DNA of 64,000 nt, from assembly GCA_037176705.1 (NCBI GenBank), contig JBAWUJ010000111.1, forward strand, positions 124,001 to 188,000. Reading direction: 5' to 3'. Below are positions 1-64,000 of the stretch, one piece after another. The translations under genes were made by a program, and so were the position numbers. Positions within the stretch are counted from its first letter, which is position 1. Each line of letters starts with the position of its first letter. The DNA comes from Molossus alvarezi (lineage: Eukaryota; Chordata; Mammalia; Chiroptera; Molossidae). The notes under the pieces were generated by a model. The model was not told where the DNA came from. It searched no databases and saw only the letters and a program-made list of their open reading frames with translations.

Positions 1-294
1 GGAGTGGAAACGGTCCTGGTGCACACTGCAACTGTTTTCAGAGAGGTAGGGACTGTCGTGTCTTAGGTCAAATAAGTACTTTTGAAACATAAGTCCATCA
101 AATCAACGTGTTCATAGTTATTGCCTGATCCGCCCGCGCCCGCCCAGCCCCCAGCACACCAGGCCAACCCCAGCCGGCCTCGCCCCCCCCACCCTGACAC
201 ACACACACACGCACCCCCACGGACACGCACACCGCCCCGCCCCCCCACACACACACTGACACAGCAGCGCCCAGTCACGGCCCGTTAGAGATCC

Positions 295-310
295 GGTCCA
301 CTGGTGGACC
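295..310. repeat. Short perfect hairpin in the 5' CpG block (unit 1 example)
   Basis: GGTCCAC (295-301) and GTGGACC (304-310) are perfect inverted arms separated by TG, with GC-rich flanks that could extend the stem with one bulge. It is present in every unit. Confidence 0.6.
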
Positions 311-603
311 CGGTCGCTGTCCGTTGCAGCGGCCAAGTCCGGTGCCGGGCAACCTGTCTCTCCGGTCGCCCAGGCAACCGGCGCGGTCTCGCGTCCCCCG
401 CAAGTCGTCCTCGCTCGTTCGGTGCCTCGATCGCGTGACCGCGGTTCTGCGGGCAGACCCGGAAGCGGGCCGGAGAGAGGCACACACGCACAGACACTCC
501 CTCCCTCCCTCGCACACAGACACACACGGGCCTCCACACCTCCCTCGCTCCCTCCCCCCCTCCCCCCCTTGGCCTCTGGCCAAATACAAATACAGAATCA
601 GTC

Positions 604-609
604 AATAAA
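604..609 (+). promoter_or_regulatory. AATAAA polyadenylation-signal-like motif (unit 1 example)
   Basis: AATAAA lies in a short AT-rich island (583-620) inside otherwise GC-rich DNA and is followed by GT/CT-rich sequence at 626-650. That is the usual arrangement of a poly(A) site on the plus strand. It would suit transcripts starting in the CpG island of the previous unit. Use is unproven. Confidence 0.3.
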
Positions 610-815
610 ACATTTCAATATCGCCGTGCTCTCGTCCTGTTCACGGGCTTTGCGTCAGTCTGCGGCGGCGGCGGCCCGGGCAGAGACCCTGAGAGGGCCG
701 AGGAGATCTCCCCCTCCCTTTTGACCTGGAGAATGTTCAGTGGGCTGGCGAGGGAAGAGCGGCTGCCAGCCGCCGAGCCGGCCCGCGCGGTTTGTTTCTC
801 ACGGAAGGCTTCCGG

Positions 816-2100
816 GCCCGTGAGGAGGGAGACGATCTGGTGGGAGACCTAAGAGTGTAGTGAGACATCAGGAGGGATACCTCGACTGGGAACATCCTCC
901 CTGAGGAGCAAGGGTTTCCCTTCCCACCCCGGGCCCCCACCCAGCTCAGGATCCCAGTACCAGGAAGAGACGTCCCCATCCCTTGTGGCTGTGCAAACCA
1001 CCGGGGATCGAGGTCCAGGCTGAGGCTGCCGGGGTCCCAGGCAGTTCCTTTGAAAGGGCCTGCCCACGCACGGAGCTCCGGGGACCCTCTTTCTGCGGGC
1101 TGCAGAGTGGGGGTGGGTGGCAGGGAGGGACAGCGGCAGCTTGAAAGGCACCAGAGACATCCCTGGGAAGAACTGAGTCAGTCGTTGGCATTGGGGTGAG
1201 AGCTGGAGGGGCAGCTTTGTCCCAGGCACACGTGCTGGTGGAGGCTGCTGTTCCATGGGTGAGCCCTTCCCTGGCGGGGCAGGCAGCCCGGTGGGCGGGC
1301 GCGCACCGTCCCTGGGACTCTGGTGACCTAGCACCCACTGTCTGGGCCACCCTGGTGATTGCCTGAGGCCCCGCCCCACGGCACATTCAGGCCCACCCAA
1401 GCGGTGTCCATTGATTTTTCCCTAGGATTGGCCTGTCTTGGCTCCCGCTTCACGAGGTCCTAAATTCTCTGAAACCAACAACACCTGGCCTCAGCGAGCC
1501 CCATACCTCCTCTGGCTCACTGGCCCCAGGCCTGGCAGTAGTAGCAGCCAGCGTTGGGCCCCAGCTTGACATTGCCTAGGCACCTCCAAGACCAGCACAG
1601 AAGGCAGCCATGTGTAGATCGCTTTGTAGCTTATGTCTGGTGGCCCCGGGGAGAACACACAGGGGCAGTGGCTGACCTCGCCCCGGAGCCAGCCTAGAAG
1701 AGTTGGCCTTTCCTTTGCTCCTTTTCCCTTCAGAATATTACAATGGCATCCTCAGTACCTGGAGGTGGGTCTTTGTGCTTCTTTCTCAATAGGCTGTACG
1801 TATGTGTTCTTTTTCTTTTTTCTCTCTTTCCTCCCTCCCTCCCTCCCTCTCTGGCTAGAGCCCTTTGGGGCTCAGGGCAAGACTGAGGAAGTTGTACAGA
1901 GAGCTCCCACATGCCCACGGCCCTGTAGTCCCTGCTCTTTCTTCCCCAAGTCACACACGGGCAGGCACGCAGGCACCCAATGCGTGAATTTTCTGAGGCC
2001 CAGAGGCCTGCTGCAGAACTTAGGATGAAAACCCTACCCTGCTCTTTTCCAGAAAGACAGGCATGGGCCTAAGCAAGGTGGCCTGGCCTGGGCTGGGCCT
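816..2100. other. Mixed unique sequence without recognisable gene (unit 1 example)
   Basis: This is moderately GC-rich DNA with no convincing coding frame, RNA gene or transposon. Notable points are a GGCGGGGC/GGGCGGGCGCGC patch near 1275-1302, a GC box at 1366-1377, a CACGTG E-box near 1230, and a polypyrimidine tract with CCCTCCCT repeats at 1805-1851 followed by GGCTAG. Variable sites are 1096, 1107, about 1187 and 1818-1819. Confidence 0.7.
1805..1851 (+). repeat. Polypyrimidine tract with CCCT repeat (unit 1 example)
   Basis: T-rich sequence runs into TCCC tetramers at 1830-1850. Units 1 and 4 have TT at the position where all other complete units have GC (1818-1819 in unit 1). Confidence 0.85.
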
Positions 2101-2134
2101 GGGGAGTGGGGGTGGGGTTAGGGGGTGGGAAGGG
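2101..2134 (+). repeat. G-run tract with quadruplex potential (unit 1 example)
   Basis: At least five runs of three to five G separated by loops of one to three bases, including GGGGTTAGGGGG, meet the usual G-quadruplex pattern on the plus strand. Unit 3 has one G replaced by C here. Confidence 0.7.
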
Positions 2135-2340
2135 AAGGCCAGGGCCACTTATTCCAAGCGAACAGCAATGGCTTGATTCAAATGCAGAGAGCCTGGGACT
2201 TTGCCTGAGGCTTCTACAACTCCCCCACACTTAGGCCACTGATTCCAAGCTGCAGGAAGGGAGCAGGGTCAGTCTGGAGCTGAAAGAGTTCGCCTCCATG
2301 TGCCAAAGCCGAAAACTGCCCTCCAGCCTCTGAGAAAGGG

Positions 2341-2407
2341 CAGGGTGTGGGTGGGGGTGAGGTGGCGGTTGGGTGGTGGTGGTGGTGGTGGTGAGCGGTG
2401 GCGGTTT
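2341..2407 (+). repeat. GGT microsatellite in G-rich DNA (unit 1 example)
   Basis: Seven GGT triplets (2372-2392) are flanked by GGTGG/GGCGG variants and more G-runs. Copy number looks the same in all units. Confidence 0.85.
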
Positions 2408-2630
2408 AGGGGTGCAAGTGCAGGGCATCCAAGGAGAAGTTAAAGAGTCCATCTCGGCGTCATAGATTCCCCAGGCCAAACGCCGGTGTGGAGTGATGAG
2501 GGTCCAGGGAGGCCTGGTAGGGGATGAATGGACTCAGTAACCCTGTGTCTCGGTAACAACAAGCACACTCGTACTGAAACACTGTGCTCCAGCTGACGAT
2601 TTTGGTAACTCACCTTTAGGTACCCTTCAC

Positions 2631-2680
2631 ATGGATGGATGGAGAGATGGTTGGGTGGGTGGGTGGATGGATGGATGGTG
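2631..2680 (+). repeat. GGAT/GGGT tetranucleotide repeat (unit 1 example)
   Basis: GGAT repeats, an interruption, GGGT repeats, then GGAT repeats again. Identical in all units as far as read. Confidence 0.85.
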
Positions 2681-2699
2681 AGCACTGAACTGGACAGAC

Positions 2700-3240: not shown

Positions 3241-3279
3241 GTGTAATCTTTGAGTCTGATGAGTTTTTTGAGTCATTCT

Positions 3280-3424
3280 TTGTTGTTGCTGGTGCTGGTG
3301 CTGGTGCTGGTGCTGGTGCTGGTGCTGGTGCTGGTGCGGGTCCTGGTGTTGGTGGTGCTTCTGCTGCAGCTGCTGCTGCCGCTGCTGCCGCTGCTGGTGC
3401 TGCTGCTGCTGCTGGTGCTGGTTC
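3280..3424 (+). repeat. Compound CTGGTG / CTG minisatellite (unit 1 example)
   Basis: TTG triplets lead into eight exact CTGGTG hexamers (3289-3336), then an interrupted CTG/CCG/GTG triplet tract to about 3424. Units 1, 3, 4, 7 and 8 have eight hexamers; units 2, 5, 6, 9, 10 and 11 have seven. The rest of the tract is constant. This is the only repeat-copy polymorphism noticed between units. A Leu-Val-rich open frame crosses it purely because of the repeat. Confidence 0.95.
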
Positions 3425-5095: not shown

Positions 5096-5220
5096 GTCCT
5101 GACGGCCCATCCCCCTGTGCGCCGACCCGGCCAGCTGTCAACCTCCTCTGTGCGGAGCTTATCACAGCCGCCACCGGGCAGGTGCTGCGCGATTGCCACA
5201 CGTCACAGTGAGGCCAGCCG

Positions 5221-5255
5221 GATCGCATCGCATCACATCGCATCGCATCGCATCC
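5221..5255 (+). repeat. CATCG pentanucleotide repeat (unit 1 example)
   Basis: Seven near-exact 5-bp repeats of CATCG, one of them CATCA, inside the CpG island. Identical in every complete unit. Confidence 0.9.
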
Positions 5256-5264
5256 TGACTAACG

Positions 5265-5286
5265 GGGCCACGGAGACGCGTGGCCC
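5265..5286. repeat. Hairpin in the CpG island (unit 1 example)
   Basis: GGGCCACG (5265-5272) and CGTGGCCC (5279-5286) are perfect 8-bp inverted arms around a six-base loop that overlaps an ACGCGT (MluI) palindrome. Present in every complete unit. Confidence 0.65.
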
Positions 5287-5348
5287 AGCGCTCGGGAGCC
5301 CGGGCTCGTGGTCGATTCACGGCAGCGGGAGGGTGCTTGGGACACTTG

Positions 5349-5460
5349 TCTTCTCTCCTCTGTTCTCTGCTTCTCTCTCTCTCTCGCTCGCTCTCTCTCT
5401 CTGTGTCTCTCTCTCCCGCCCCGCCCCCGTCTCCCTCTCCTCCTCTCTCTCACCCCCCTA
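5349..5460 (+). repeat. Long CT-rich polypyrimidine tract (unit 1 example)
   Basis: About 110 bases are almost entirely C and T, including CT dinucleotide runs and a GC box. It could serve as a splice polypyrimidine tract or form triplex DNA. Its length does not vary between units, unusually for a CT repeat. Confidence 0.85.
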
Positions 5461-5487
5461 GTCTCATAGAGCTCTCCTGTCTTGCAG

Positions 5488-5703
5488 GACAGGGAATTTC
5501 GCGGAGTCGTGGAAGGGACTGCTCCCCTAGGCCCCTCCTGTGCCGAGGAAGGTCAGGCGGGCAAGCGGATCCCCGGGCGGATTTGGGGATTTCCTCGGAG
5601 CGAGGAGGCAGCTTCTCTGTGCGATCTCGGTTCCGGCGGAGGACACCTGCTGCGGGCAGCGAAGCCGGACCCCGGTGGCCTGGGGTTTGGGCCGGCGCCG
5701 CCG
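5488..5703 (+). other. Possible 216-bp exon (unit 1 example)
   Basis: The segment is bounded by a strong acceptor (long pyrimidine tract, CTTGCAG ending at 5487) and a GTACGT donor at 5704. Its length is a multiple of three and several frames are open across it, but the encoded residues resemble no family known to me and open frames are expected in such GC-rich DNA. It is more likely part of a noncoding transcript, if it is an exon at all. Confidence 0.25.
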
Positions 5704-8700
5704 GTACGTCAACCATCCACAGGAGTGGAAACGGTCCTGGTGCACACTGCAACTGTTTTCAGAGAGGTAGGGACTGTCGTGTCTTAGGTCAAATAAGTAC
5801 TTTTGAAACATAAGTCCATCAAATCAACGTGTTCATAGTTATTGCCTGATCCGCCCGCGCCCGCCCAGCCCCCAGCACACCAGGCCAACCCCAGCCGGCC
5901 TCGCCCCCCCCACCCTGACACACACACACACGCACCCCCACGGACACGCACACCGCCCCGCCCCCACACACACACACTGACACAGCAGCGCCCAGTCACG
6001 GCCCGTTAGAGATCCGGTCCACTGGTGGACCCGGTCGCTGTCCGTTGCAGCGGCCAAGTCCGGTGCCGGGCAACCTGTCTCTCCGGTCGCCCAGGCAACC
6101 GGCGCGGTCTCGCGTCCCCCGCAAGTCGTCCTCGCTCGTTCGGTGCCTCGATCGCGTGACCGCGGTTCTGCGGGCAGACCCGGAAGCGGGCCGGAGAGAG
6201 GCACACACGCACAGACACTCCCTCCCTCCCTCGCACACAGACACACACGGGCCTCCACACCTCCCTCGCTCCCTCCCCCCCTCCCCCCCTTGGCCTCTGG
6301 CCAAATACAAATACAGAATCAGTCAATAAAACATTTCAATATCGCCGTGCTCTCGTCCTGTTCACGGGCTTTGCGTCAGTCTGCGGCGGCGGCGGCCCGG
6401 GCAGAGACCCTGAGAGGGCCGAGGAGATCTCCCCCTCCCTTTTGACCTGGAGAATGTTCAGTGGGCTGGCGAGGGAAGAGCGGCTGCCAGCCGCCGAGCC
6501 GGCCCGCGCGGTTTGTTTCTCACGGAAGGCTTCCGGGCCCGTGAGGAGGGAGACGATCTGGTGGGAGACCTAAGAGTGTAGTGAGACATCAGGAGGGATA
6601 CCTCGACTGGGAACATCCTCCCTGAGGAGCAAGGGTTTCCCTTCCCACCCCGGGCCCCCACCCAGCTCAGGATCCCAGTACCAGGAAGAGACGTCCCCAT
6701 CCCTTGTGGCTGTGCAAACCACCGGGGATCGAGGTCCAGGCTGAGGCTGCCGGGGTCCCAGGCAGTTCCTTTGAAAGGGCCTGCCCACGCACGGAGCTCC
6801 GGGGACCCTCTTTCTGCGGGCTGCAGAGTGGGGGTGGGTGGCAGGGAGGGACAGCGGCAGCTTGAAAGGCACCAGAGACATCCCTGGGAAGAACTGAGTC
6901 AGTCCTTTGGCATTGGGGTGAGAGCTGGAGGGGCAGCTTTGTCCCAGGCACACGTGCTGGTGGAGGCTGCTGTTCCATGGGTGAGCCCTTCCCTGGCGGG
7001 GCAGGCAGCCCGGTGGGCGGGCGCGCACCGTCCCTGGGACTCTGGTGACCTAGCACCCACTGTCTGGGCCACCCTGGTGATTGCCTGAGGCCCCGCCCCA
7101 CGGCACATTCAGGCCCACCCAAGCGGTGTCCATTGATTTTTCCCTAGGATTGGCCTGTCTTGGCTCCCGCTTCACGAGGTCCTAAATTCTCTGAAACCAA
7201 CAACACCTGGCCTCAGCGAGCCCCATACCTCCTCTGGCTCACTGGCCCCAGGCCTGGCAGTAGTAGCAGCCAGCGTTGGGCCCCAGCTTGACATTGCCTA
7301 GGCACCTCCAAGACCAGCACAGAAGGCAGCCATGTGTAGATCGCTTTGTAGCTTATGTCTGGTGGCCCCGGGGAGAACACACAGGGGCAGTGGCTGACCT
7401 CGCCCCGGAGCCAGCCTAGAAGAGTTGGCCTTTCCTTTGCTCCTTTTCCCTTCAGAATATTACAATGGCATCCTCAGTACCTGGAGGTGGGTCTTTGTGC
7501 TTCTTTCTCAATAGGCTGTACGTATGTGTTCTTTTTCTTGCTTCTCTCTTTCCTCCCTCCCTCCCTCCCTCTCTGGCTAGAGCCCTTTGGGGCTCAGGGC
7601 AAGACTGAGGAAGTTGTACAGAGAGCTCCCACATGCCCACGGCCCTGTAGTCCCTGCTCTTTCTTCCCCAAGTCACACACGGGCAGGCACGCAGGCACCC
7701 AATGCGTGAATTTTCTGAGGCCCAGAGGCCTGCTGCAGAACTTAGGATGAAAACCCTACCCTGCTCTTTTCCAGAAAGACAGGCATGGGCCTAAGCAAGG
7801 TGGCCTGGCCTGGGCTGGGCCTGGGGAGTGGGGGTGGGGTTAGGGGGTGGGAAGGGAAGGCCAGGGCCACTTATTCCAAGCGAACAGCAATGGCTTGATT
7901 CAAATGCAGAGAGCCTGGGACTTTGCCTGAGGCTTCTACAACTCCCCCACACTTAGGCCACTGATTCCAAGCTGCAGGAAGGGAGCAGGGTCAGTCTGGA
8001 GCTGAAAGAGTTCGCCTCCATGTGCCAAAGCCGAAAACTGCCCTCCAGCCTCTGAGAAAGGGCAGGGTGTGGGTGGGGGTGAGGTGGCGGTTGGGTGGTG
8101 GTGGTGGTGGTGGTGAGCGGTGGCGGTTTAGGGGTGCAAGTGCAGGGCATCCAAGGAGAAGTTAAAGAGTCCATCTCGGAGTCATAGATTCCCCAGGCCA
8201 AACGCCGGTGTGGAGTGATGAGGGTCCAGGGAGGCCTGGTAGGGGATGAATGGACTCAGTAACCCTGTGTCTCGGTAACAACAAGCACACTCGTACTGAA
8301 ACACTGTGCTCCAGCTGACGATTTTGGTAACTCACCTTTAGGTACCCTTCACATGGATGGATGGAGAGATGGTTGGGTGGGTGGGTGGATGGATGGATGG
8401 TGAGCACTGAACTGGACAGACAGGACACACCGATCCTCCCTCCGACCACCGATTTCCAAGGGTAGGTCCGGGCCTAGGACATGGGCAACCCCCCATCAAG
8501 TGAATTTAGTTAACACCTTTGTAATTTGGACCATCAGTGAGTTTAGTGTAGGTCTCTGGGTCTGTGAGGCCACTACACAGGCCTCCCCTGAGCTCGCCTG
8601 TGTTCCTATGTGTATGTGGCCCCTGCTACGCGCACACGCGCGCACACACACGGTACTCTCCTCCGGAGAGCCCTGACTCCTAAGTCGTGATCCAGGGGTT

Positions 8701-9839
8701 GTTTGAAACATCACCCCAAAGGAGTGGACCCCAGGAGGGGGATGTGAACATATGTCCTAGATGCCAGTGAACTGTGTGTTCTTAAAAGGGTTCAGATCTG
8801 AGGTCGTAGGTGATGTTTATATTTACTACCCTGCAATGAGAACCTAGAAACAAGTCAGGACATCAAAAATCCCTCTCTTTGAAAGTCAGGGAGTTCCTGC
8901 ATGTGTCAGAGAGGGTCCCCTATTTGTCTCCTGGCCTTCCACAGAATTCACCCCAGGACCTGAGGTGTAATCTTTGAGTCTGATGAGTTTTTTGAGTCAT
9001 TCTTTGTTGTTGCTGGTGCTGGTGCTGGTGCTGGTGCTGGTGCTGGTGCTGGTGCGGGTCCTGGTGTTGGTGGTGCTTCTGCTGCAGCTGCTGCTGCCGC
9101 TGCTGCCGCTGCTGGTGCTGCTGCTGCTGCTGGTGCTGGTTCTTCAGTTAATCCTCACCCGAGGGTATTTCCTTGATTTGCAGTTGGACACTGAAATGGC
9201 AGGATAATTCTGGGAGAAGAGGAACGGAGAAACCGAGGCAGGAAAGTTAAACAGAGCCAAAGAGCTTTGCGGGACGTGTTTAGCAGGGCCTTGTCTTGAG
9301 AACCAGGCCAACAGACTCTATTTGTCACAGAAGTGTGCAGCAGAGGAGGGGGCACGGAAGGGGAGAGGGGGAGAATTCAGACACCACTCATCCTGAAGTT
9401 GTTGGGACAGCAGGGAGGGAGGGAGGGAGAGAGGAAGGAGGAAAGAAGAGTGTAAAGGAATGGACCAAGCAACCAAGCAACCAAGCGACAAAAGAGGCAG
9501 GTCCTTCCCAGGAATAGACCAAAGAAAAGGGGAGACTTTTGGAGTCCAACTGCACCAGGAATATCTAGGCGAGGAACTCAAACACAAAAACTTCCAGACA
9601 GAAGGGGATGTGAGGCAGAAAAGGCTCTTTAGATGAGCTGACAGCCTGCCTGTGCTTCCTAGGCCAGACGCGTAGGTGGGCTCGCTCCGTTTCCGTAATA
9701 AATGTGCATGAGTTCAGGTTGTGCTCCATTCACTTGCACTCACGTTGCAATAAATTCACGGAGCGAGCGGAAAGCAGATGTTATGTGCAGTGTCTCCTCC
9801 ACCTCCTTCCCCATGAGAACACAAAGATCCAGGCTGGGG

Positions 9840-9854
9840 ACAGCCCTCTGCCGG
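9840..9854 (-). promoter_or_regulatory. Candidate CTCF site, unit 2
   Basis: Motif identical to unit 1, same orientation. The flank has G at the variable site (CCAGGCTGG). Confidence 0.55.
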
Positions 9855-10789
9855 TGATTCAGGGGATCGTCCAGTCACACCTCTCTGGTGTCTGTGAGCG
9901 GCGGTGCAGGTCCCATTTTCATCACAGGCGGCCTTTGAGAGGGAGTGGGAGGGGGGCAGGGGGTATGGTCAAGTGGGAGGGCAGGAGGGAGCGGGAAGAG
10001 GGAACTCTGCAACACCTCATGAGTTTATTCTCTTTGGCTTTCCCCACACACTCACTGCTTCAAGAAGCAATGTGGAGTCACACCAAGATTCCCCACGGGA
10101 GAACAGGAAGGAGGGGTTGACGGCAGGCAAGTTTCCTTAGTAGGCCTCCTCCTCGCCCAGCCGCACCACTTGCCCTTGGCAGAGATTCCAGCGCCAGGCA
10201 AGGGGAGGAGTGGGGGCGAAAGCTTCACAGTGCCCAAAGGGTAGGGCCCCCGGCCCATGGGAAGCTGGAGGCAGGCGGGCCGAGCAGTAGAGGGGTGTCC
10301 CGTGGAACACATCTGCCGCTTTTCCATCGGACTGGAGCTTGGTGGGTTGTCGGGGCGGCGGCCCAAACACACGGGTGGAGGGGGGCGCTCGCCTAGGGCG
10401 GGACTTTTGGGGGGGTTGCCCCGCCGGTTCGGGGCCCGCCGCCACAGGAGTGGTTCGCGGTGTCCTGCCAGGAATCCCTCCGTCACCCTCTTCAGTCCAC
10501 CAAACCCCCTTTTTGTCTGGGAAAAGTGGACATGTGTAAAGAGGAGAAGCAAACGGACGACACAGCTCGGAGAGGCCGATTCACGTGGATTTTGTTTCCA
10601 CGCGACACAGGTGTCAAGAAGTAAGTGTAAGGGATGAGGCCCCCACCTGCATTTCTCAGACCCGTGAAAGTAGTTTTCATGGCAGGTACTGCCGCGTGTC
10701 ATTTGCCCCTACCCTGCTCCTACACACCGCCTTCCTTTTCCCCGGGGCGCAGGTGTGCTGCTAATTGCCACCATTCAGGGCGGCCGCGG

Positions 10790-10813
10790 CCCCGCCCCCT
10801 TCGCCCCGCCCCC
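10790..10813. promoter_or_regulatory. Paired GC boxes, unit 2
   Basis: Same two CCCCGCCCCC boxes with TTCG spacer as in unit 1. Confidence 0.6.
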
Positions 10814-13800
10814 GTCCTGACGGCCCATCCCCCTGTGCGCCGACCCGGCCAGCTGTCAACCTCCTCTGTGCGGAGCTTATCACAGCCGCCACCGGGCAGG
10901 TGCTGCGCGATTGCCACACGTCACAGTGAGGCCAGCCGGATCGCATCGCATCACATCGCATCGCATCGCATCCTGACTAACGGGGCCACGGAGACGCGTG
11001 GCCCAGCGCTCGGGAGCCCGGGCTCGTGGTCGATTCACGGCAGCGGGAGGGTGCTTGGGACACTTGTCTTCTCTCCTCTGTTCTCTGCTTCTCTCTCTCT
11101 CTCGCTCGCTCTCTCTCTCTGTGTCTCTCTCTCCCGCCCCGCCCCCGTCTCCCTCTCCTCCTCTCTCTCACCCCCCTAGTCTCATAGAGCTCTCCTGTCT
11201 TGCAGGACAGGGAATTTCGCGGAGTCGTGGAAGGGACTGCTCCCCTAGGCCCCTCCTGTGCCGAGGAAGGTCAGGCGGGCAAGCGGATCCCCGGGCGGAT
11301 TTGGGGATTTCCTCGGAGCGAGGAGGCAGCTTCTCTGTGCGATCTCGGTTCCGGCGGAGGACACCTGCTGCGGGCAGCGAAGCCGGACCCCGGTGGCCTG
11401 GGGTTTGGGCCGGCGCCGCCGGTACGTCAACCATCCACAGGAGTGGAAACGGTCCTGGTGCACACTGCAACTGTTTTCAGAGAGGTAGGGACTGTCGTGT
11501 CTTAGGTCAAATAAGTACTTTTGAAACATAAGTCCATCAAATCAACGTGTTCATAGTTATTGCCTGATCCGCCCGCGCCCGCCCAGCCCCCAGCACACCA
11601 GGCCAACCCCAGCCGGCCTCGCCCCCCCCACCCTGACACACACACACACGCACCCCCACGGACACGCACACCGCCCCGCCCCCACACACACACACTGACA
11701 CAGCAGCGCCCAGTCACGGCCCGTTAGAGATCCGGTCCACTGGTGGACCCGGTCGCTGTCCGTTGCAGCGGCCAAGTCCGGTGCCGGGCAACCTGTCTCT
11801 CCGGTCGCCCAGGCAACCGGCGCGGTCTCGCGTCCCCCGCAAGTCGTCCTCGCTCGTTCGGTGCCTCGATCGCGTGACCGCGGTTCTGCGGGCAGACCCG
11901 GAAGCGGGCCGGAGAGAGGCACACACGCACAGACACTCCCTCCCTCCCTCGCACACAGACACACACGGGCCTCCACACCTCCCTCGCTCCCTCCCCCCCT
12001 CCCCCCCTTGGCCTCTGGCCAAATACAAATACAGAATCAGTCAATAAAACATTTCAATATCGCCGTGCTCTCGTCCTGTTCACGGGCTTTGCGTCAGTCT
12101 GCGGCGGCGGCGGCCCGGGCAGAGACCCTGAGAGGGCCGAGGAGATCTCCCCCTCCCTTTTGACCTGGAGAATGTTCAGTGGGCTGGCGAGGGAAGAGCG
12201 GCTGCCAGCCGCCGAGCCGGCCCGCGCGGTTTGTTTCTCACGGAAGGCTTCCGGGCCCGTGAGGAGGGAGACGATCTGGTGGGAGACCTAAGAGTGTAGT
12301 GAGACATCAGGAGGGATACCTCGACTGGGAACATCCTCCCTGAGGAGCAAGGGTTTCCCTTCCCACCCCGGGCCCCCACCCAGCTCAGGATCCCAGTACC
12401 AGGAAGAGACGTCCCCATCCCTTGTGGCTGTGCAAACCACCGGGGATCGAGGTCCAGGCTGAGGCTGCCGGGGTCCCAGGCAGTTCCTTTGAAAGGGCCT
12501 GCCCACGCACGGAGCTCCGGGGACCCTCTTTCTGCGGGCTGCAGAGTGGGGGTGGGTGGCAGGGAGGGACAGCGGCAGCTTGAAAGGCACCAGAGACATC
12601 CCTGGGAAGAACTGAGTCAGTCCTTTGGCATTGGGGTGAGAGCTGGAGGGGCAGCTTTGTCCCAGGCACACGTGCTGGTGGAGGCTGCTGTTCCATGGGT
12701 GAGCCCTTCCCTGGCGGGGCAGGCAGCCCGGTGGGCGGGCGCGCACCGTCCCTGGGACTCTGGTGACCTAGCACCCACTGTCTGGGCCACCCTGGTGATT
12801 GCCTGAGGCCCCGCCCCACGGCACATTCAGGCCCACCCAAGCGGTGTCCATTGATTTTTCCCTAGGATTGGCCTGTCTTGGCTCCCGCTTCACGAGGTCC
12901 TAAATTCTCTGAAACCAACAACACCTGGCCTCAGCGAGCCCCATACCTCCTCTGGCTCACTGGCCCCAGGCCTGGCAGTAGTAGCAGCCAGCGTTGGGCC
13001 CCAGCTTGACATTGCCTAGGCACCTCCAAGACCAGCACAGAAGGCAGCCATGTGTAGATCGCTTTGTAGCTTATGTCTGGTGGCCCCGGGGAGAACACAC
13101 AGGGGCAGTGGCTGACCTCGCCCCGGAGCCAGCCTAGAAGAGTTGGCCTTTCCTTTGCTCCTTTTCCCTTCAGAATATTACAATGGCATCCTCAGTACCT
13201 GGAGGTGGGTCTTTGTGCTTCTTTCTCAATAGGCTGTACGTATGTGTTCTTTTTCTTGCTTCTCTCTTTCCTCCCTCCCTCCCTCCCTCTCTGGCTAGAG
13301 CCCTTTGGGGCTCAGGGCAAGACTGAGGAAGTTGTACAGAGAGCTCCCACATGCCCACGGCCCTGTAGTCCCTGCTCTTTCTTCCCCAAGTCACACACGG
13401 GCAGGCACGCAGGCACCCAATGCGTGAATTTTCTGAGGCCCAGAGGCCTGCTGCAGAACTTAGGATGAAAACCCTACCCTGCTCTTTTCCAGAAAGACAG
13501 GCATGGGCCTAAGCAAGGTGGCCTGGCCTGGGCTGGGCCTGGGGAGTGGGGGTGGGGTTAGGGGCTGGGAAGGGAAGGCCAGGGCCACTTATTCCAAGCG
13601 AACAGCAATGGCTTGATTCAAATGCAGAGAGCCTGGGACTTTGCCTGAGGCTTCTACAACTCCCCCACACTTAGGCCACTGATTCCAAGCTGCAGGAAGG
13701 GAGCAGGGTCAGTCTGGAGCTGAAAGAGTTCGCCTCCATGTGCCAAAGCCGAAAACTGCCCTCCAGCCTCTGAGAAAGGGCAGGGTGTGGGTGGGGGTGA

Positions 13801-45142: not shown

Positions 45143-48100
45143 GTCCTGACGGCCCATCCCCCTGTGCGCCGACCCGGCCAGCTGTCAACCTCCTCTGTGC
45201 GGAGCTTATCACAGCCGCCACCGGGCAGGTGCTGCGCGATTGCCACACGTCACAGTGAGGCCAGCCGGATCGCATCGCATCACATCGCATCGCATCGCAT
45301 CCTGACTAACGGGGCCACGGAGACGCGTGGCCCAGCGCTCGGGAGCCCGGGCTCGTGGTCGATTCACGGCAGCGGGAGGGTGCTTGGGACACTTGTCTTC
45401 TCTCCTCTGTTCTCTGCTTCTCTCTCTCTCTCGCTCGCTCTCTCTCTCTGTGTCTCTCTCTCCCGCCCCGCCCCCGTCTCCCTCTCCTCCTCTCTCTCAC
45501 CCCCCTAGTCTCATAGAGCTCTCCTGTCTTGCAGGACAGGGAATTTCGCGGAGTCGTGGAAGGGACTGCTCCCCTAGGCCCCTCCTGTGCCGAGGAAGGT
45601 CAGGCGGGCAAGCGGATCCCCGGGCGGATTTGGGGATTTCCTCGGAGCGAGGAGGCAGCTTCTCTGTGCGATCTCGGTTCCGGCGGAGGACACCTGCTGC
45701 GGGCAGCGAAGCCGGACCCCGGTGGCCTGGGGTTTGGGCCGGCGCCGCCGGTACGTCAACCATCCACAGGAGTGGAAACGGTCCTGGTGCACACTGCAAC
45801 TGTTTTCAGAGAGGTAGGGACTGTCGTGTCTTAGGTCAAATAAGTACTTTTGAAACATAAGTCCATCAAATCAACGTGTTCATAGTTATTGCCTGATCCG
45901 CCCGCGCCCGCCCAGCCCCCAGCACACCAGGCCAACCCCAGCCGGCCTCGCCCCCCCCACCCTGACACACACACACACGCACCCCCACGGACACGCACAC
46001 CGCCCCGCCCCCACACACACACACTGACACAGCAGCGCCCAGTCACGGCCCGTTAGAGATCCGGTCCACTGGTGGACCCGGTCGCTGTCCGTTGCAGCGG
46101 CCAAGTCCGGTGCCGGGCAACCTGTCTCTCCGGTCGCCCAGGCAACCGGCGCGGTCTCGCGTCCCCCGCAAGTCGTCCTCGCTCGTTCGGTGCCTCGATC
46201 GCGTGACCGCGGTTCTGCGGGCAGACCCGGAAGCGGGCCGGAGAGAGGCACACACGCACAGACACTCCCTCCCTCCCTCGCACACAGACACACACGGGCC
46301 TCCACACCTCCCTCGCTCCCTCCCCCCCTCCCCCCCTTGGCCTCTGGCCAAATACAAATACAGAATCAGTCAATAAAACATTTCAATATCGCCGTGCTCT
46401 CGTCCTGTTCACGGGCTTTGCGTCAGTCTGCGGCGGCGGCGGCCCGGGCAGAGACCCTGAGAGGGCCGAGGAGATCTCCCCCTCCCTTTTGACCTGGAGA
46501 ATGTTCAGTGGGCTGGCGAGGGAAGAGCGGCTGCCAGCCGCCGAGCCGGCCCGCGCGGTTTGTTTCTCACGGAAGGCTTCCGGGCCCGTGAGGAGGGAGA
46601 CGATCTGGTGGGAGACCTAAGAGTGTAGTGAGACATCAGGAGGGATACCTCGACTGGGAACATCCTCCCTGAGGAGCAAGGGTTTCCCTTCCCACCCCGG
46701 GCCCCCACCCAGCTCAGGATCCCAGTACCAGGAAGAGACGTCCCCATCCCTTGTGGCTGTGCAAACCACCGGGGATCGAGGTCCAGGCTGAGGCTGCCGG
46801 GGTCCCAGGCAGTTCCTTTGAAAGGGCCTGCCCACGCACGGAGCTCCGGGGACCCTCTTTCTGCGGGCTGCAGAGTGGGGGTGGGTGGCAGGGAGGGACA
46901 GCGGCAGCTTGAAAGGCACCAGAGACATCCCTGGGAAGAACTGAGTCAGTCCTTTGGCATTGGGGTGAGAGCTGGAGGGGCAGCTTTGTCCCAGGCACAC
47001 GTGCTGGTGGAGGCTGCTGTTCCATGGGTGAGCCCTTCCCTGGCGGGGCAGGCAGCCCGGTGGGCGGGCGCGCACCGTCCCTGGGACTCTGGTGACCTAG
47101 CACCCACTGTCTGGGCCACCCTGGTGATTGCCTGAGGCCCCGCCCCACGGCACATTCAGGCCCACCCAAGCGGTGTCCATTGATTTTTCCCTAGGATTGG
47201 CCTGTCTTGGCTCCCGCTTCACGAGGTCCTAAATTCTCTGAAACCAACAACACCTGGCCTCAGCGAGCCCCATACCTCCTCTGGCTCACTGGCCCCAGGC
47301 CTGGCAGTAGTAGCAGCCAGCGTTGGGCCCCAGCTTGACATTGCCTAGGCACCTCCAAGACCAGCACAGAAGGCAGCCATGTGTAGATCGCTTTGTAGCT
47401 TATGTCTGGTGGCCCCGGGGAGAACACACAGGGGCAGTGGCTGACCTCGCCCCGGAGCCAGCCTAGAAGAGTTGGCCTTTCCTTTGCTCCTTTTCCCTTC
47501 AGAATATTACAATGGCATCCTCAGTACCTGGAGGTGGGTCTTTGTGCTTCTTTCTCAATAGGCTGTACGTATGTGTTCTTTTTCTTGCTTCTCTCTTTCC
47601 TCCCTCCCTCCCTCCCTCTCTGGCTAGAGCCCTTTGGGGCTCAGGGCAAGACTGAGGAAGTTGTACAGAGAGCTCCCACATGCCCACGGCCCTGTAGTCC
47701 CTGCTCTTTCTTCCCCAAGTCACACACGGGCAGGCACGCAGGCACCCAATGCGTGAATTTTCTGAGGCCCAGAGGCCTGCTGCAGAACTTAGGATGAAAA
47801 CCCTACCCTGCTCTTTTCCAGAAAGACAGGCATGGGCCTAAGCAAGGTGGCCTGGCCTGGGCTGGGCCTGGGGAGTGGGGGTGGGGTTAGGGGGTGGGAA
47901 GGGAAGGCCAGGGCCACTTATTCCAAGCGAACAGCAATGGCTTGATTCAAATGCAGAGAGCCTGGGACTTTGCCTGAGGCTTCTACAACTCCCCCACACT
48001 TAGGCCACTGATTCCAAGCTGCAGGAAGGGAGCAGGGTCAGTCTGGAGCTGAAAGAGTTCGCCTCCATGTGCCAAAGCCGAAAACTGCCCTCCAGCCTCT

Positions 48101-50860: not shown

Positions 50861-53800
50861 GTCCTGACGGCCCATCCCCCTGTGCGCCGACCCGGCCAGC
50901 TGTCAACCTCCTCTGTGCGGAGCTTATCACAGCCGCCACCGGGCAGGTGCTGCGCGATTGCCACACGTCACAGTGAGGCCAGCCGGATCGCATCGCATCA
51001 CATCGCATCGCATCGCATCCTGACTAACGGGGCCACGGAGACGCGTGGCCCAGCGCTCGGGAGCCCGGGCTCGTGGTCGATTCACGGCAGCGGGAGGGTG
51101 CTTGGGACACTTGTCTTCTCTCCTCTGTTCTCTGCTTCTCTCTCTCTCTCGCTCGCTCTCTCTCTCTGTGTCTCTCTCTCCCGCCCCGCCCCCGTCTCCC
51201 TCTCCTCCTCTCTCTCACCCCCCTAGTCTCATAGAGCTCTCCTGTCTTGCAGGACAGGGAATTTCGCGGAGTCGTGGAAGGGACTGCTCCCCTAGGCCCC
51301 TCCTGTGCCGAGGAAGGTCAGGCGGGCAAGCGGATCCCCGGGCGGATTTGGGGATTTCCTCGGAGCGAGGAGGCAGCTTCTCTGTGCGATCTCGGTTCCG
51401 GCGGAGGACACCTGCTGCGGGCAGCGAAGCCGGACCCCGGTGGCCTGGGGTTTGGGCCGGCGCCGCCGGTACGTCAACCATCCACAGGAGTGGAAACGGT
51501 CCTGGTGCACACTGCAACTGTTTTCAGAGAGGTAGGGACTGTCGTGTCTTAGGTCAAATAAGTACTTTTGAAACATAAGTCCATCAAATCAACGTGTTCA
51601 TAGTTATTGCCTGATCCGCCCGCGCCCGCCCAGCCCCCAGCACACCAGGCCAACCCCAGCCGGCCTCGCCCCCCCCACCCTGACACACACACACACGCAC
51701 CCCCACGGACACGCACACCGCCCCGCCCCCACACACACACACTGACACAGCAGCGCCCAGTCACGGCCCGTTAGAGATCCGGTCCACTGGTGGACCCGGT
51801 CGCTGTCCGTTGCAGCGGCCAAGTCCGGTGCCGGGCAACCTGTCTCTCCGGTCGCCCAGGCAACCGGCGCGGTCTCGCGTCCCCCGCAAGTCGTCCTCGC
51901 TCGTTCGGTGCCTCGATCGCGTGACCGCGGTTCTGCGGGCAGACCCGGAAGCGGGCCGGAGAGAGGCACACACGCACAGACACTCCCTCCCTCCCTCGCA
52001 CACAGACACACACGGGCCTCCACACCTCCCTCGCTCCCTCCCCCCCTCCCCCCCTTGGCCTCTGGCCAAATACAAATACAGAATCAGTCAATAAAACATT
52101 TCAATATCGCCGTGCTCTCGTCCTGTTCACGGGCTTTGCGTCAGTCTGCGGCGGCGGCGGCCCGGGCAGAGACCCTGAGAGGGCCGAGGAGATCTCCCCC
52201 TCCCTTTTGACCTGGAGAATGTTCAGTGGGCTGGCGAGGGAAGAGCGGCTGCCAGCCGCCGAGCCGGCCCGCGCGGTTTGTTTCTCACGGAAGGCTTCCG
52301 GGCCCGTGAGGAGGGAGACGATCTGGTGGGAGACCTAAGAGTGTAGTGAGACATCAGGAGGGATACCTCGACTGGGAACATCCTCCCTGAGGAGCAAGGG
52401 TTTCCCTTCCCACCCCGGGCCCCCACCCAGCTCAGGATCCCAGTACCAGGAAGAGACGTCCCCATCCCTTGTGGCTGTGCAAACCACCGGGGATCGAGGT
52501 CCAGGCTGAGGCTGCCGGGGTCCCAGGCAGTTCCTTTGAAAGGGCCTGCCCACGCACGGAGCTCCGGGGACCCTCTTTCTGCGGGCTGCAGAATGGGGGT
52601 GGGTGGCAGGGAGGGACAGCGGCAGCTTGAAAGGCACCAGAGACATCCCTGGGAAGAACTGAGTCAGTCCTTTGGCATTGGGGTGAGAGCTGGAGGGGCA
52701 GCTTTGTCCCAGGCACACGTGCTGGTGGAGGCTGCTGTTCCATGGGTGAGCCCTTCCCTGGCGGGGCAGGCAGCCCGGTGGGCGGGCGCGCACCGTCCCT
52801 GGGACTCTGGTGACCTAGCACCCACTGTCTGGGCCACCCTGGTGATTGCCTGAGGCCCCGCCCCACGGCACATTCAGGCCCACCCAAGCGGTGTCCATTG
52901 ATTTTTCCCTAGGATTGGCCTGTCTTGGCTCCCGCTTCACGAGGTCCTAAATTCTCTGAAACCAACAACACCTGGCCTCAGCGAGCCCCATACCTCCTCT
53001 GGCTCACTGGCCCCAGGCCTGGCAGTAGTAGCAGCCAGCGTTGGGCCCCAGCTTGACATTGCCTAGGCACCTCCAAGACCAGCACAGAAGGCAGCCATGT
53101 GTAGATCGCTTTGTAGCTTATGTCTGGTGGCCCCGGGGAGAACACACAGGGGCAGTGGCTGACCTCGCCCCGGAGCCAGCCTAGAAGAGTTGGCCTTTCC
53201 TTTGCTCCTTTTCCCTTCAGAATATTACAATGGCATCCTCAGTACCTGGAGGTGGGTCTTTGTGCTTCTTTCTCAATAGGCTGTACGTATGTGTTCTTTT
53301 TCTTGCTTCTCTCTTTCCTCCCTCCCTCCCTCCCTCTCTGGCTAGAGCCCTTTGGGGCTCAGGGCAAGACTGAGGAAGTTGTACAGAGAGCTCCCACATG
53401 CCCACGGCCCTGTAGTCCCTGCTCTTTCTTCCCCAAGTCACACACGGGCAGGCACGCAGGCACCCAATGCGTGAATTTTCTGAGGCCCAGAGGCCTGCTG
53501 CAGAACTTAGGATGAAAACCCTACCCTGCTCTTTTCCAGAAAGACAGGCATGGGCCTAAGCAAGGTGGCCTGGCCTGGGCTGGGCCTGGGGAGTGGGGGT
53601 GGGGTTAGGGGGTGGGAAGGGAAGGCCAGGGCCACTTATTCCAAGCGAACAGCAATGGCTTGATTCAAATGCAGAGAGCCTGGGACTTTGCCTGAGGCTT
53701 CTACAACTCCCCCACACTTAGGCCACTGATTCCAAGCTGCAGGAAGGGAGCAGGGTCAGTCTGGAGCTGAAAGAGTTCGCCTCCATGTGCCAAAGCCGAA

Positions 53801-56578: not shown

Positions 56579-59500
56579 GTCCTGACGGCCCATCCCCCTG
56601 TGCGCCGACCCGGCCAGCTGTCAACCTCCTCTGTGCGGAGCTTATCACAGCCGCCACCGGGCAGGTGCTGCGCGATTGCCACACGTCACAGTGAGGCCAG
56701 CCGGATCGCATCGCATCACATCGCATCGCATCGCATCCTGACTAACGGGGCCACGGAGACGCGTGGCCCAGCGCTCGGGAGCCCGGGCTCGTGGTCGATT
56801 CACGGCAGCGGGAGGGTGCTTGGGACACTTGTCTTCTCTCCTCTGTTCTCTGCTTCTCTCTCTCTCTCGCTCGCTCTCTCTCTCTGTGTCTCTCTCTCCC
56901 GCCCCGCCCCCGTCTCCCTCTCCTCCTCTCTCTCACCCCCCTAGTCTCATAGAGCTCTCCTGTCTTGCAGGACAGGGAATTTCGCGGAGTCGTGGAAGGG
57001 ACTGCTCCCCTAGGCCCCTCCTGTGCCGAGGAAGGTCAGGCGGGCAAGCGGATCCCCGGGCGGATTTGGGGATTTCCTCGGAGCGAGGAGGCAGCTTCTC
57101 TGTGCGATCTCGGTTCCGGCGGAGGACACCTGCTGCGGGCAGCGAAGCCGGACCCCGGTGGCCTGGGGTTTGGGCCGGCGCCGCCGGTACGTCAACCATC
57201 CACAGGAGTGGAAACGGTCCTGGTGCACACTGCAACTGTTTTCAGAGAGGTAGGGACTGTCGTGTCTTAGGTCAAATAAGTACTTTTGAAACATAAGTCC
57301 ATCAAATCAACGTGTTCATAGTTATTGCCTGATCCGCCCGCGCCCGCCCAGCCCCCAGCACACCAGGCCAACCCCAGCCGGCCTCGCCCCCCCCACCCTG
57401 ACACACACACACACGCACCCCCACGGACACGCACACCGCCCCGCCCCCCCACACACACACTGACACAGCAGCGCCCAGTCACGGCCCGTTAGAGATCCGG
57501 TCCACTGGTGGACCCGGTCGCTGTCCGTTGCAGCGGCCAAGTCCGGTGCCGGGCAACCTGTCTCTCCGGTCGCCCAGGCAACCGGCGCGGTCTCGCGTCC
57601 CCCGCAAGTCGTCCTCGCTCGTTCGGTGCCTCGATCGCGTGACCGCGGTTCTGCGGGCAGACCCGGAAGCGGGCCGGAGAGAGGCACACACGCACAGACA
57701 CTCCCTCCCTCCCTCGCACACAGACACACACGGGCCTCCACACCTCCCTCGCTCCCTCCCCCCCTCCCCCCCTTGGCCTCTGGCCAAATACAAATACAGA
57801 ATCAGTCAATAAAACATTTCAATATCGCCGTGCTCTCGTCCTGTTCACGGGCTTTGCGTCAGTCTGCGGCGGCGGCGGCCCGGGCAGAGACCCTGAGAGG
57901 GCCGAGGAGATCTCCCCCTCCCTTTTGACCTGGAGAATGTTCAGTGGGCTGGCGAGGGAAGAGCGGCTGCCAGCCGCCGAGCCGGCCCGCGCGGTTTGTT
58001 TCTCACGGAAGGCTTCCGGGCCCGTGAGGAGGGAGACGATCTGGTGGGAGACCTAAGAGTGTAGTGAGACATCAGGAGGGATACCTCGACTGGGAACATC
58101 CTCCCTGAGGAGCAAGGGTTTCCCTTCCCACCCCGGGCCCCCACCCAGCTCAGGATCCCAGTACCAGGAAGAGACGTCCCCATCCCTTGTGGCTGTGCAA
58201 ACCACCGGGGATCGAGGTCCAGGCTGAGGCTGCCGGGGTCCCAGGCAGTTCCTTTGAAAGGGCCTGCCCACGCACGGAGCTCCGGGGACCCTCTTTCTGC
58301 GGGCTGCAGAGTGGGGGTGGGTGGCAGGGAGGGACAGCGGCAGCTTGAAAGGCACCAGAGACATCCCTGGGAAGAACTGAGTCAGTCCTTTGGCATTGGG
58401 GTGAGAGCTGGAGGGGCAGCTTTGTCCCAGGCACACGTGCTGGTGGAGGCTGCTGTTCCATGGGTGAGCCCTTCCCTGGCGGGGCAGGCAGCCCGGTGGG
58501 CGGGCGCGCACCGTCCCTGGGACTCTGGTGACCTAGCACCCACTGTCTGGGCCACCCTGGTGATTGCCTGAGGCCCCGCCCCACGGCACATTCAGGCCCA
58601 CCCAAGCGGTGTCCATTGATTTTTCCCTAGGATTGGCCTGTCTTGGCTCCCGCTTCACGAGGTCCTAAATTCTCTGAAACCAACAACACCTGGCCTCAGC
58701 GAGCCCCATACCTCCTCTGGCTCACTGGCCCCAGGCCTGGCAGTAGTAGCAGCCAGCGTTGGGCCCCAGCTTGACATTGCCTAGGCACCTCCAAGACCAG
58801 CACAGAAGGCAGCCATGTGTAGATCGCTTTGTAGCTTATGTCTGGTGGCCCCGGGGAGAACACACAGGGGCAGTGGCTGACCTCGCCCCGGAGCCAGCCT
58901 AGAAGAGTTGGCCTTTCCTTTGCTCCTTTTCCCTTCAGAATATTACAATGGCATCCTCAGTACCTGGAGGTGGGTCTTTGTGCTTCTTTCTCAATAGGCT
59001 GTACGTATGTGTTCTTTTTCTTGCTTCTCTCTTTCCTCCCTCCCTCCCTCCCTCTCTGGCTAGAGCCCTTTGGGGCTCAGGGCAAGACTGAGGAAGTTGT
59101 ACAGAGAGCTCCCACATGCCCACGGCCCTGTAGTCCCTGCTCTTTCTTCCCCAAGTCACACACGGGCAGGCACGCAGGCACCCAATGCGTGAATTTTCTG
59201 AGGCCCAGAGGCCTGCTGCAGAACTTAGGATGAAAACCCTACCCTGCTCTTTTCCAGAAAGACAGGCATGGGCCTAAGCAAGGTGGCCTGGCCTGGGCTG
59301 GGCCTGGGGAGTGGGGGTGGGGTTAGGGGGTGGGAAGGGAAGGCCAGGGCCACTTATTCCAAGGGAACAGCAATGGCTTGATTCAAATGCAGAGAGCCTG
59401 GGACTTTGCCTGAGGCTTCTACAACTCCCCCACACTTAGGCCACTGATTCCAAGCTGCAGGAAGGGAGCAGGGTCAGTCTGGAGCTGAAAGAGTTCGCCT

Positions 59501-61322: not shown

Positions 61323-61337
61323 ACAGCCCTCTGCCGG
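61323..61337 (-). promoter_or_regulatory. Candidate CTCF site, unit 11
   Basis: Motif identical and in the same orientation. G at the flanking variable site, combined with GAAAGCCGATG further upstream. Confidence 0.55.
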
Positions 61338-62272
61338 TGATTCAGGGGATCGTCCAGTCACACCTCTCTGGTGTCTGTGAGCGGCGGTGCAGGTCCCATT
61401 TTCATCACAGGCGGCCTTTGAGAGGGAGTGGGAGGGGGGCAGGGGGTATGGTCAAGTGGGAGGGCAGGAGGGAGCGGGAAGAGGGAACTCTGCAACACCT
61501 CATGAGTTTATTCTCTTTGGCTTTCCCCACACACTCACTGCTTCAAGAAGCAATGTGGAGTCACACCAAGATTCCCCACGGGAGAACAGGAAGGAGGGGT
61601 TGACGGCAGGCAAGTTTCCTTAGTAGGCCTCCTCCTCGCCCAGCCGCACCACTTGCCCTTGGCAGAGATTCCAGCGCCAGGCAAGGGGAGGAGTGGGGGC
61701 GAAAGCTTCACAGTGCCCAAAGGGTAGGGCCCCCGGCCCATGGGAAGCTGGAGGCAGGCGGGCCGAGCAGTAGAGGGGTGTCCCGTGGAACACATCTGCC
61801 GCTTTTCCATCGGACTGGAGCTTGGTGGGTTGTCGGGGCGGCGGCCCAAACACACGGGTGGAGGGGGGCGCTCGCCTAGGGCGGGACTTTTGGGGGGGTT
61901 GCCCCGCCGGTTCGGGGCCCGCCGCCACAGGAGTGGTTCGCGGTGTCCTGCCAGGAATCCCTCCGTCACCCTCTTCAGTCCACCAAACCCCCTTTTTGTC
62001 TGGGAAAAGTGGACATGTGTAAAGAGGAGAAGCAAACGGACGACACAGCTCGGAGAGGCCGATTCACGTGGATTTTGTTTCCACGCGACACAGGTGTCAA
62101 GAAGGAAGTGTAAGGGATGAGGCCCCCACCTGCATTTCTCAGACCCGTGAAAGTAGTTTTCATGGCAGGTACTGCCGCGTGTCATTTGCCCCTACCCTGC
62201 TCCTACACACCGCCTTCCTTTTCCCCGGGGCGCAGGTGTGCTGCTAATTGCCACCATTCAGGGCGGCCGCGG

Positions 62273-62296
62273 CCCCGCCCCCTTCGCCCCGCCCCC
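62273..62296. promoter_or_regulatory. Paired GC boxes, unit 11
   Basis: Same two boxes. The upstream GTAAGT is lost in this unit. Confidence 0.6.
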
Positions 62297-62922
62297 GTCC
62301 TGACGGCCCATCCCCCTGTGCGCCGACCCGGCCAGCTGTCAACCTCCTCTGTGCGGAGCTTATCACAGCCGCCACCGGGCAGGTGCTGCGCGATTGCCAC
62401 ACGTCACAGTGAGGCCAGCCGGATCGCATCGCATCACATCGCATCGCATCGCATCCTGACTAACGGGGCCACGGAGACGCGTGGCCCAGCGCTCGGGAGC
62501 CCGGGCTCGTGGTCGATTCACGGCAGCGGGAGGGTGCTTGGGACACTTGTCTTCTCTCCTCTGTTCTCTGCTTCTCTCTCTCTCTCGCTCGCTCTCTCTC
62601 TCTGTGTCTCTCTCTCCCGCCCCGCCCCCGTCTCCCTCTCCTCCTCTCTCTCACCCCCCTAGTCTCATAGAGCTCTCCTGTCTTGCAGGACAGGGAATTT
62701 CGCGGAGTCGTGGAAGGGACTGCTCCCCTAGGCCCCTCCTGTGCCGAGGAAGGTCAGGCGGGCAAGCGGATCCCCGGGCGGATTTGGGGATTTCCTCGGA
62801 GCGAGGAGGCAGCTTCTCTGTGCGATCTCGGTTCCGGCGGAGGACACCTGCTGCGGGCAGCGAAGCCGGACCCCGGTGGCCTGGGGTTTGGGCCGGCGCC
62901 GCCGGTACGTCAACCATCCACA

Positions 62923-64000
62923 GGAGTGGAAACGGTCCTGGTGCACACTGCAACTGTTTTCAGAGAGGTAGGGACTGTCGTGTCTTAGGTCAAATAAGTA
63001 CTTTTGAAACATAAGTCCATCAAATCAACGTGTTCATAGTTATTGCCTGATCGGCCCGCGCCCGCCCAGCCCCCAGCACACCAGGCCAACCCCAGCCGGC
63101 CTCGCCCCCCCCCACCCTGACACACACACACACGCACCCCCACGGACACGCACACCGCCCCGCCCCCCCACACACACACTGACACAGCAGCGCCCAGTCA
63201 CGGCCCGTTAGAGATCCGGTCCACTGGTGGACCCGGTCGCTGTCCGTTGCAGCGGCCAAGTCCGGTGCCGGGCAACCTGTCTCTCCGGTCGCCCAGGCAA
63301 CCGGCGCGGTCTCGCGTCCCCCGCAAGTCGTCCTCGCTCGTTCGGTGCCTCGATCGCGTGACCGCGGTTCTGCGGGCAGACCCGGAAGCGGGCCGGAGAG
63401 AGGCACACACGCACAGACACTCCCTCCCTCCCTCGCACACAGACACACACGGGCCTCCACACCTCCCTCGCTCCCTCCCCCCCTCCCCCCCTTGGCCTCT
63501 GGCCAAATACAAATACAGAATCAGTCAATAAAACATTTCAATATCGCCGTGCTCTCGTCCTGTTCACGGGCTTTGCGTCAGTCTGCGGCGGCGGCGGCCC
63601 GGGCAGAGACCCTGAGAGGGCCGAGGAGATCTCCCCCTCCCTTTTGACCTGGAGAATGTTCAGTGGGCTGGCGAGGGAAGAGCGGCTGCCAGCCGCCGAG
63701 CCGGCCCGCGCGGTTTGTTTCTCACGGAAGGCTTCCGGGCCCGTGAGGAGGGAGACGATCTGGTGGGAGACCTAAGAGTGTAGTGAGACATCAGGAGGGA
63801 TACCTCGACTGGGAACATCCTCCCTGAGGAGCAAGGGTTTCCCTTCCCACCCCGGGCCCCCACCCAGCTCAGGATCCCAGTACCAGGAAGAGACGTCCCC
63901 ATCCCTTGTGGCTGTGCAAACCACCGGGGATCGAGGTCCAGGCTGAGGCTGCCGGGGTCCCAGGCAGTTCCTTTGAAAGGGCCTGCCCACGCACGGAGCT
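62923..64000 (+). repeat. Macrosatellite unit 12, truncated by the window edge (1078 bp present)
   Basis: Only the first 1078 bases are present: the junction, the CpG-rich block and the start of the mixed region. It has the C-type C-run but two private changes: C to G at 63053 (TGATCGGCCC) and one extra C in the run near 63104-63112 (nine C, eight elsewhere). The other units show essentially one variable site in this stretch, so this copy is more diverged than its neighbours. Confidence 0.96.

Follow-up and report, generated by a model that had tools for sequence, protein, structure and literature searches.

The 64,000-bp stretch of the Molossus alvarezi genome analyzed here (the window; C107:124001-188000 of an assembly of 2.504 Gb in 285 contigs) is filled by a macrosatellite which, with a probability that we put at roughly 0.8, represents a transcribed family with one small noncoding RNA gene per unit, homogenised by unequal crossing over and gene conversion. 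Each unit appears to hold a two-exon, polyadenylated transcript gene of about 1.0 kb starting in a CpG island, because a copy on contig C63 begins near unit position 5161, is missing precisely a GT-AG intron and has a run of A's at its end, after AATAAA. There is weak evidence that this transcribed macrosatellite is newly described.

The putative gene and its processed copy

A 25-base word of the unit has 289 exact matches in the genome (228 forward and 61 reverse; 0 for a backward control). The places were listed in contig order up to within C107, covering the earlier contigs including C63, and among the matches listed 12 are isolated places outside arrays, of which we examined four (C9, C63, and one of two each on C29 and C42). 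The pieces on C9, C29 and C42 retain intron sequence. The copy at C63:40103113-40104098 corresponds to unit positions 5161-5311 joined directly to 5489-5718 and continuing from 1 to about 627, the match thus crossing the unit junction; the missing segment is exactly the GT-AG intron, which reads GTCGATT...TCTTGCAG in the window units. At the 3' end the copy reads AATAAAACATTTCAATATCAC followed by A9, 15 nt past AATAAA, where the array instead continues with GCCGTGCTC. An L1 ORF1 remnant (PF02994, E 7e-25) lies immediately before the copy, which is 12% different from the window units. Taken together, the 5' end in the CpG island, the exact GT-AG gap, the polyadenylation signal and the A tract point to a processed retrocopy. 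We take C63 as the X chromosome because the androgen receptor gene, recognized by its N-terminal family, maps to it. The exon-exon junction word has one perfect genome match; a search for further retrocopies by junction pattern, which more-changed junctions would escape, returned four one-mismatch matches, taken as chance because a backward control gave eight.

Transcription by RNA polymerase II would begin in the CpG island at about unit position 5161, a GT-AG intron of 177 nt would be removed, and the RNA would cross the arbitrary unit boundary before cleavage and polyadenylation about 20 nt past the start of the AATAAA at unit position 608, yielding an RNA of about 1.0 kb. By exact match, all 11 window copies retain the words that mark the start, GT donor, acceptor and AATAAA (Table 1). 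From the processed copy we infer that a spliced, polyadenylated RNA was made in the germ line, and the window copies may still be transcribed. The sequence-only reading had found no RNA gene in the window; the X-linked processed copy speaks against this, as it suggests a spliced, polyadenylated transcription unit in every unit. Of the features of transcribed macrosatellites, near-identical head-to-tail units of more than 1 kb are present, and a transcription unit would be too, judging from the processed copy.

The array and its genomic family

Eleven full units of 5,717-5,724 bp on one strand and a 1,082-bp partial unit from position 62919 form a head-to-tail array over positions 1-64000, with unit 1 lacking its first 4 bases at the window edge. 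The full units are at least 99.8% alike (1-9 pairwise mismatches); 28 alignment columns vary, 4 of them representing the cut edge of unit 1, and there are 19 independent differences, while unit length variation stems mainly from one GTGCTG step. The unit has a GC content of 0.59, and its CpG observed/expected ratio, taken in 300-bp steps, is 0.63-0.93 from unit position 4,500 or so over the junction to about 900 of the next unit, compared with 0.07-0.58 elsewhere. The initial description of near-identical, GC-rich units of about 5.72 kb filling the window in one orientation is thus borne out. Distances between units are minimal at lag 4 (mean 4.1; p 0.0026 by order shuffling, 0.018 when six lags are considered), which points to a higher-order period of four units, about 22.9 kb. 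This period fits unequal crossing over, which together with gene conversion between units would keep the arrays alike.

Table 1. Coordinates of the array, its units and the putative RNA gene copies in the window
Feature	Position	Strand	Details
Macrosatellite array	1..64000	+	from unit starts and pairwise differences
Unit starts	1, 5718, 11436, 17160, 22883, 28601, 34319, 40043, 45765, 51483, 57201		same orientation
Reference unit (unit 2)	5718..11435	+	5,718 bp; basis of all unit coordinates
3' part of putative gene copy	1..624	+	promoter precedes window; AATAAA 604
Putative RNA gene copy 1	5160..6345	+	exon 1 5160-5310, intron 5311-5487 (GT-AG), exon 2 5488-~6345, AATAAA 6325; model from X-linked retrocopy
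Putative RNA gene copy 2	10878..12063	+	exon 1 10878-11028, intron 11029-11205, exon 2 from 11206, AATAAA 12043
Putative RNA gene copy 3	16602..17787	+	exon 1 to 16752, exon 2 from 16930, AATAAA 17767
Putative RNA gene copy 4	22325..23510	+	exon 1 to 22475, exon 2 from 22653, AATAAA 23490
Putative RNA gene copy 5	28043..29228	+	exon 1 to 28193, exon 2 from 28371, AATAAA 29208
Putative RNA gene copy 6	33761..34946	+	exon 1 to 33911, exon 2 from 34089, AATAAA 34926
Putative RNA gene copy 7	39485..40670	+	exon 1 to 39635, exon 2 from 39813, AATAAA 40650
Putative RNA gene copy 8	45207..46392	+	exon 1 to 45357, exon 2 from 45535, AATAAA 46372
Putative RNA gene copy 9	50925..52110	+	exon 1 to 51075, exon 2 from 51253, AATAAA 52090
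Putative RNA gene copy 10	56643..57828	+	exon 1 to 56793, exon 2 from 56971, AATAAA 57808
Putative RNA gene copy 11	62361..63547	+	exon 1 to 62511, exon 2 from 62689, AATAAA 63527
CpG-rich region across unit junction	10218..12335	+	unit 2 composition; portion beyond 11435 measured at 5718-6617
176-bp segment	9596..9771	+	unit 3879-4054; hairpin with 11-bp stem, two AATAAA words

Among the matches listed, arrays lie at both ends of C20 and at the end of the chromosome scaffold C19, and C24 and C107 also carry them. Further unit-bearing contigs are C111, C121, C125, C132, C143 and C216, and diverged family members occur in sampled stretches of C18, C21, C23 and C25. The contigs C20-C25 probably belong to the chromosome of C19, because unlocalised pieces appear, from scaffold sizes, to be ordered behind their chromosome. 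Scaffold sizes, L1 elements and an androgen receptor gene on one large scaffold agree with a mammalian genome. Four subfamilies were compared, namely A (the window), D (C24), B (C25) and C (C18), the last three represented by one unit each; identity over ungapped columns is 97.9% for A and D, 95.6% for A and B and 89.4% for A and C. The 176-bp segment (Table 1) is shared by A and B; neither the C18 unit nor the C9 copy has it, insertion versus deletion being undecided. With diverged relatives on several scaffolds, the family is not confined to a single locus. Exact unit words had no match in a viral contig collection or in another genome contig collection.

Because contigs break inside arrays, the copy number is uncertain, and 289 is the number of matches in the assembly. 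Such breaks, and units at least 99.8% alike, are also what extra copies created by duplication during assembly might look like. However, private unit variants recur with the four-unit period, 289 exact words are present, and the subfamilies on other contigs are 2-11% apart, so that we give this explanation hardly any weight; the assembly duplication named in the sequence-only reading as a threat to the array does not account for it by itself.

Several other observations were made on the contigs surveyed. Next to the array is a diverged 24-bp satellite (GGAACACTAGCTAGTTCCTTCCAT), which occurs in both orientations and was seen on C20 and at the ends of C24 and C22. Mitochondrial ATP8-like sequence gave at least 40 matches (150 of 255 candidates scored) on C9, C29, C41-C45, C199, C200, C21, C26, the end of C19 and others, many of which score identically on different contigs, as if segmentally duplicated. 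By eye, C20:500001-502000 holds an L1-like element start and about eight GC-rich tandem monomers of 130 bp, and several very GC-rich contig starts resemble 5S rRNA gene arrays. A broken gene at C20:900001-902000 may be TSPY-like, a resemblance that Pfam did not confirm. In a search for ribosomal DNA near the array (39 of 33,445 candidates scored), three scattered 5.8S-like matches were obtained. One lies on C19, some 10 Mb away from the array, and the matches establish no connection with a nucleolus organiser.

Substitution patterns, coding potential and present activity

The same exons have changed differently inside and outside the array. Their CpG observed/expected ratio is 0.87-0.89 in A, B and C units and 0.60 in the retrocopy, which carries 58 private exon changes (39 transitions, 19 transversions), 47 of them from G or C to A or T (strong to weak) versus 2 in the opposite direction (weak to strong); 31 of the 58 fall at CpG sites of A. 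The decay of the retrocopy is ordinary. Exon changes private to the array branches run the other way, with weak-to-strong to strong-to-weak ratios of 10:1 in A, 10:3 in B and 22:9 in C; the position of the root affects the counts of C and the retrocopy and not those of A and B. At exon sites separating A and B from the other two, C and the retrocopy, the ratio is 18:6, the direction of these changes being unsure. Counts for the entire unit, taken with C as outgroup, are 131 weak-to-strong versus 54 strong-to-weak changes, a per-site rate ratio of 3.4 (4.3 in the island, 2.9 in the body). When only transversions of A and B are considered, the counts are 50 versus 17, an excess beyond what CpG decay would make. 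The simplest cause of the excess in the array would be GC-biased gene conversion, which we infer from the direction of these changes.

The modelled RNAs measure 1,008 nt in A, 1,030 nt in B and 1,010 nt in C, and the retrocopy 986 nt. The A transcript contains no ATG frame of at least 25 aa. ATG frames of 85 aa in C and of 101 and 31 aa in the retrocopy accompany those discussed below; the start of the C frame and the 31-aa frame look alike, and none of the look-alike frames of B, C and the retrocopy begins with ATG in A. Since the subfamilies have no reading frame in common, the product of the putative gene is most likely a noncoding RNA. Pfam searches with the 98 stop-to-stop frames of at least 45 aa of one unit gave one weak match each to five families (E 0.021-0.058), none of them credible, and two unit frames had no relatives in a large protein collection. 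The earlier statement that the window holds no coding gene therefore stands as far as Pfam families are concerned; the unit is nevertheless probably not gene-free, given the two-exon transcript gene proposed here. Among known RNAs, no Rfam family reaches its gathering score in the window, with no tRNA and no U2, and a search at lax thresholds gave only three matches at chance level, none of them U2 or tRNA. A structure scan of one unit (286 windows, lowest z -3.8) was not convincing.

Several observations weigh against a family of actively transcribed noncoding RNA genes. At the C63 copy no target-site duplication could be defined, and its first bases (TATCA) could be shared by chance with the preceding L1. 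The donor is GT in A and in the pieces on C9, C29 and C42; at that position the one unit each of B and C has CT (GC when read one base upstream), so that these subfamilies may not splice there. A structure scan of the exon alignment (24 windows) gave a lowest z of -3.5, at only -7.2 kcal/mol, and a next value of -2.0, and was not convincing either. With respect to biased conversion, B, C and D each contributed one unit to the polarisation of substitutions, and the whole-unit excess comes from the stem of A and D (41:13) and from B (57:12). By count, the most recent branches show none (A, 14:14) or little (D, 19:15), which speaks against a strong bias today; the stem count might also have been inflated by homoplasy at CpG sites. 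Finally, a 76-aa frame in B and an 82-aa frame in the retrocopy look, by reading, like one frame with the same ATG. A small protein, since lost, is therefore possible; A lacks a 22-bp stretch bearing this ATG, and C has a 4-base gap inside the frame. This apparently shared frame would also suit a protein-coding family with a short or multi-exon protein, which we regard as improbable in view of the unproductive Pfam and protein searches and the A transcript without an ATG frame of at least 25 aa.

A more serious alternative, to which we assign rather less than even odds, is that the unit is now an inert satellite in subtelomeric heterochromatin, the gene having been active only in an ancestor and its copies remaining intact by homogenisation alone; apart from present activity, this overlaps with the transcribed family that we favor. 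The only retrocopy found differs by 12% from A and bears its 58 private changes, which speaks for past rather than present transcription. The array on C20 adjoins the diverged 24-bp satellite at C20:1599179, and C21, which belongs to the same family, ends in telomere repeats, a setting that suits an inert satellite, as do the B and C units without a GT donor. On the other hand, the start, donor, acceptor and AATAAA are intact throughout the window, and the exons in the array have kept a CpG ratio that was lost outside it. At the other extreme, the array might consist of hundreds of active subtelomeric noncoding RNA genes, whose CpG-island promoters, open in the germ line, draw recombination to themselves; transcription, homogenisation and GC-biased conversion would then sustain one another while the X-linked copy decays. 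We consider this unlikely; if true, the array and its stranded copy would form a matched pair, provided by nature, in which to test how repeat arrays avoid decay through methylation.

The transcribed family that we prefer has a precise gene model, obtained for a macrosatellite without RNA data. Its processed copy represents a rare internal control, as the same kilobase has evolved in opposite directions inside and outside the array, and the proposition that gene conversion keeps tandem arrays GC-rich thereby becomes directly testable within one genome.

Comparison with known macrosatellites

Among the matches listed from a mostly open literature on macrosatellites, biased conversion and processed pseudogenes, no description of such a 5.7-kb unit was found; the comparison included parts of PMC3491370, PMC10656420 and PMC2588610. 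That the unit matches none that can be named, as the sequence-only reading held, is upheld insofar as features of DXZ4, D4Z4, RS447 and RNU2 are absent and this literature lacks such a unit, for a comparison made without a repeat library or other mammalian assemblies. Its statement that the D4Z4 and RS447 proteins are missing proved correct, as none of the 98 frames matches a homeobox family, which would indicate the double homeobox of DUX, or the USP17 deubiquitinase.

D4Z4/DUX repeats form a subtelomeric macrosatellite and contain one transcription unit each, and the array described here is similar in both respects, the transcription unit being a predicted one. It differs in its unit of 5.7 instead of 3.3 kb, in the absence of a homeobox frame and in its putative two-exon RNA without a kept frame. 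RS447/USP17 likewise has one gene per kilobase-scale unit; here a peptidase frame is lacking and an intron is predicted. RNU2 arrays consist of tandem noncoding RNA genes in units of about 6.1 kb. A macrosatellite bearing tRNA genes is reported with a 7.3-kb unit (PMC4041453). The family proposed here would share with these the tandem noncoding RNA genes in kilobase-scale units, but the window contains no U2 or tRNA gene and no other Rfam family at its gathering score.

In human, mouse and horse, DXZ4 consists of kilobase-scale, head-to-tail units whose sequence diverges fast between species, according to the abstract of PMC3491370. It is transcribed and not obviously protein coding (see also PMC3218863 and PMC3018141). 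A GC-rich unit of kilobase scale, with a CT tract and no known coding gene, could represent a macrosatellite of this type, that is, a CTCF-bound boundary on the X chromosome, and PMC10656420 puts the mouse Dxz4 monomers at 3.8 and 5.7 kb. Yet the unit agrees with the published CTCF 33-mer at no more than 20 of its 33 positions. A CTCF matrix scores 11.1 at best in the unit, less than the 12.4 averaged by the best scores of 40 random sequences with matched dinucleotide composition. This test has a weak side: the first 30 bases of the published DXZ4 motif have no match within 3 mismatches genome-wide, so that the probe lacks a positive control in this genome. DXZ4 lies on the X between PLS3 and AGTR2, two genes that were not sought here; the placed arrays are on C19, and the X (C63) has a single 25-mer match, the retrocopy, several array contigs being unplaced. 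We therefore rejected identity with DXZ4 on motif and placement, with the unplaced contigs and the missing positive control as the weak points, and consider such an assignment very improbable. The array thus resembles DXZ4 in its kilobase-scale, head-to-tail units and is unlike it in not being placed on the X, in lacking the CTCF motif and in its predicted gene for a polyadenylated transcript, one in each unit, of which a processed copy exists elsewhere in the genome.

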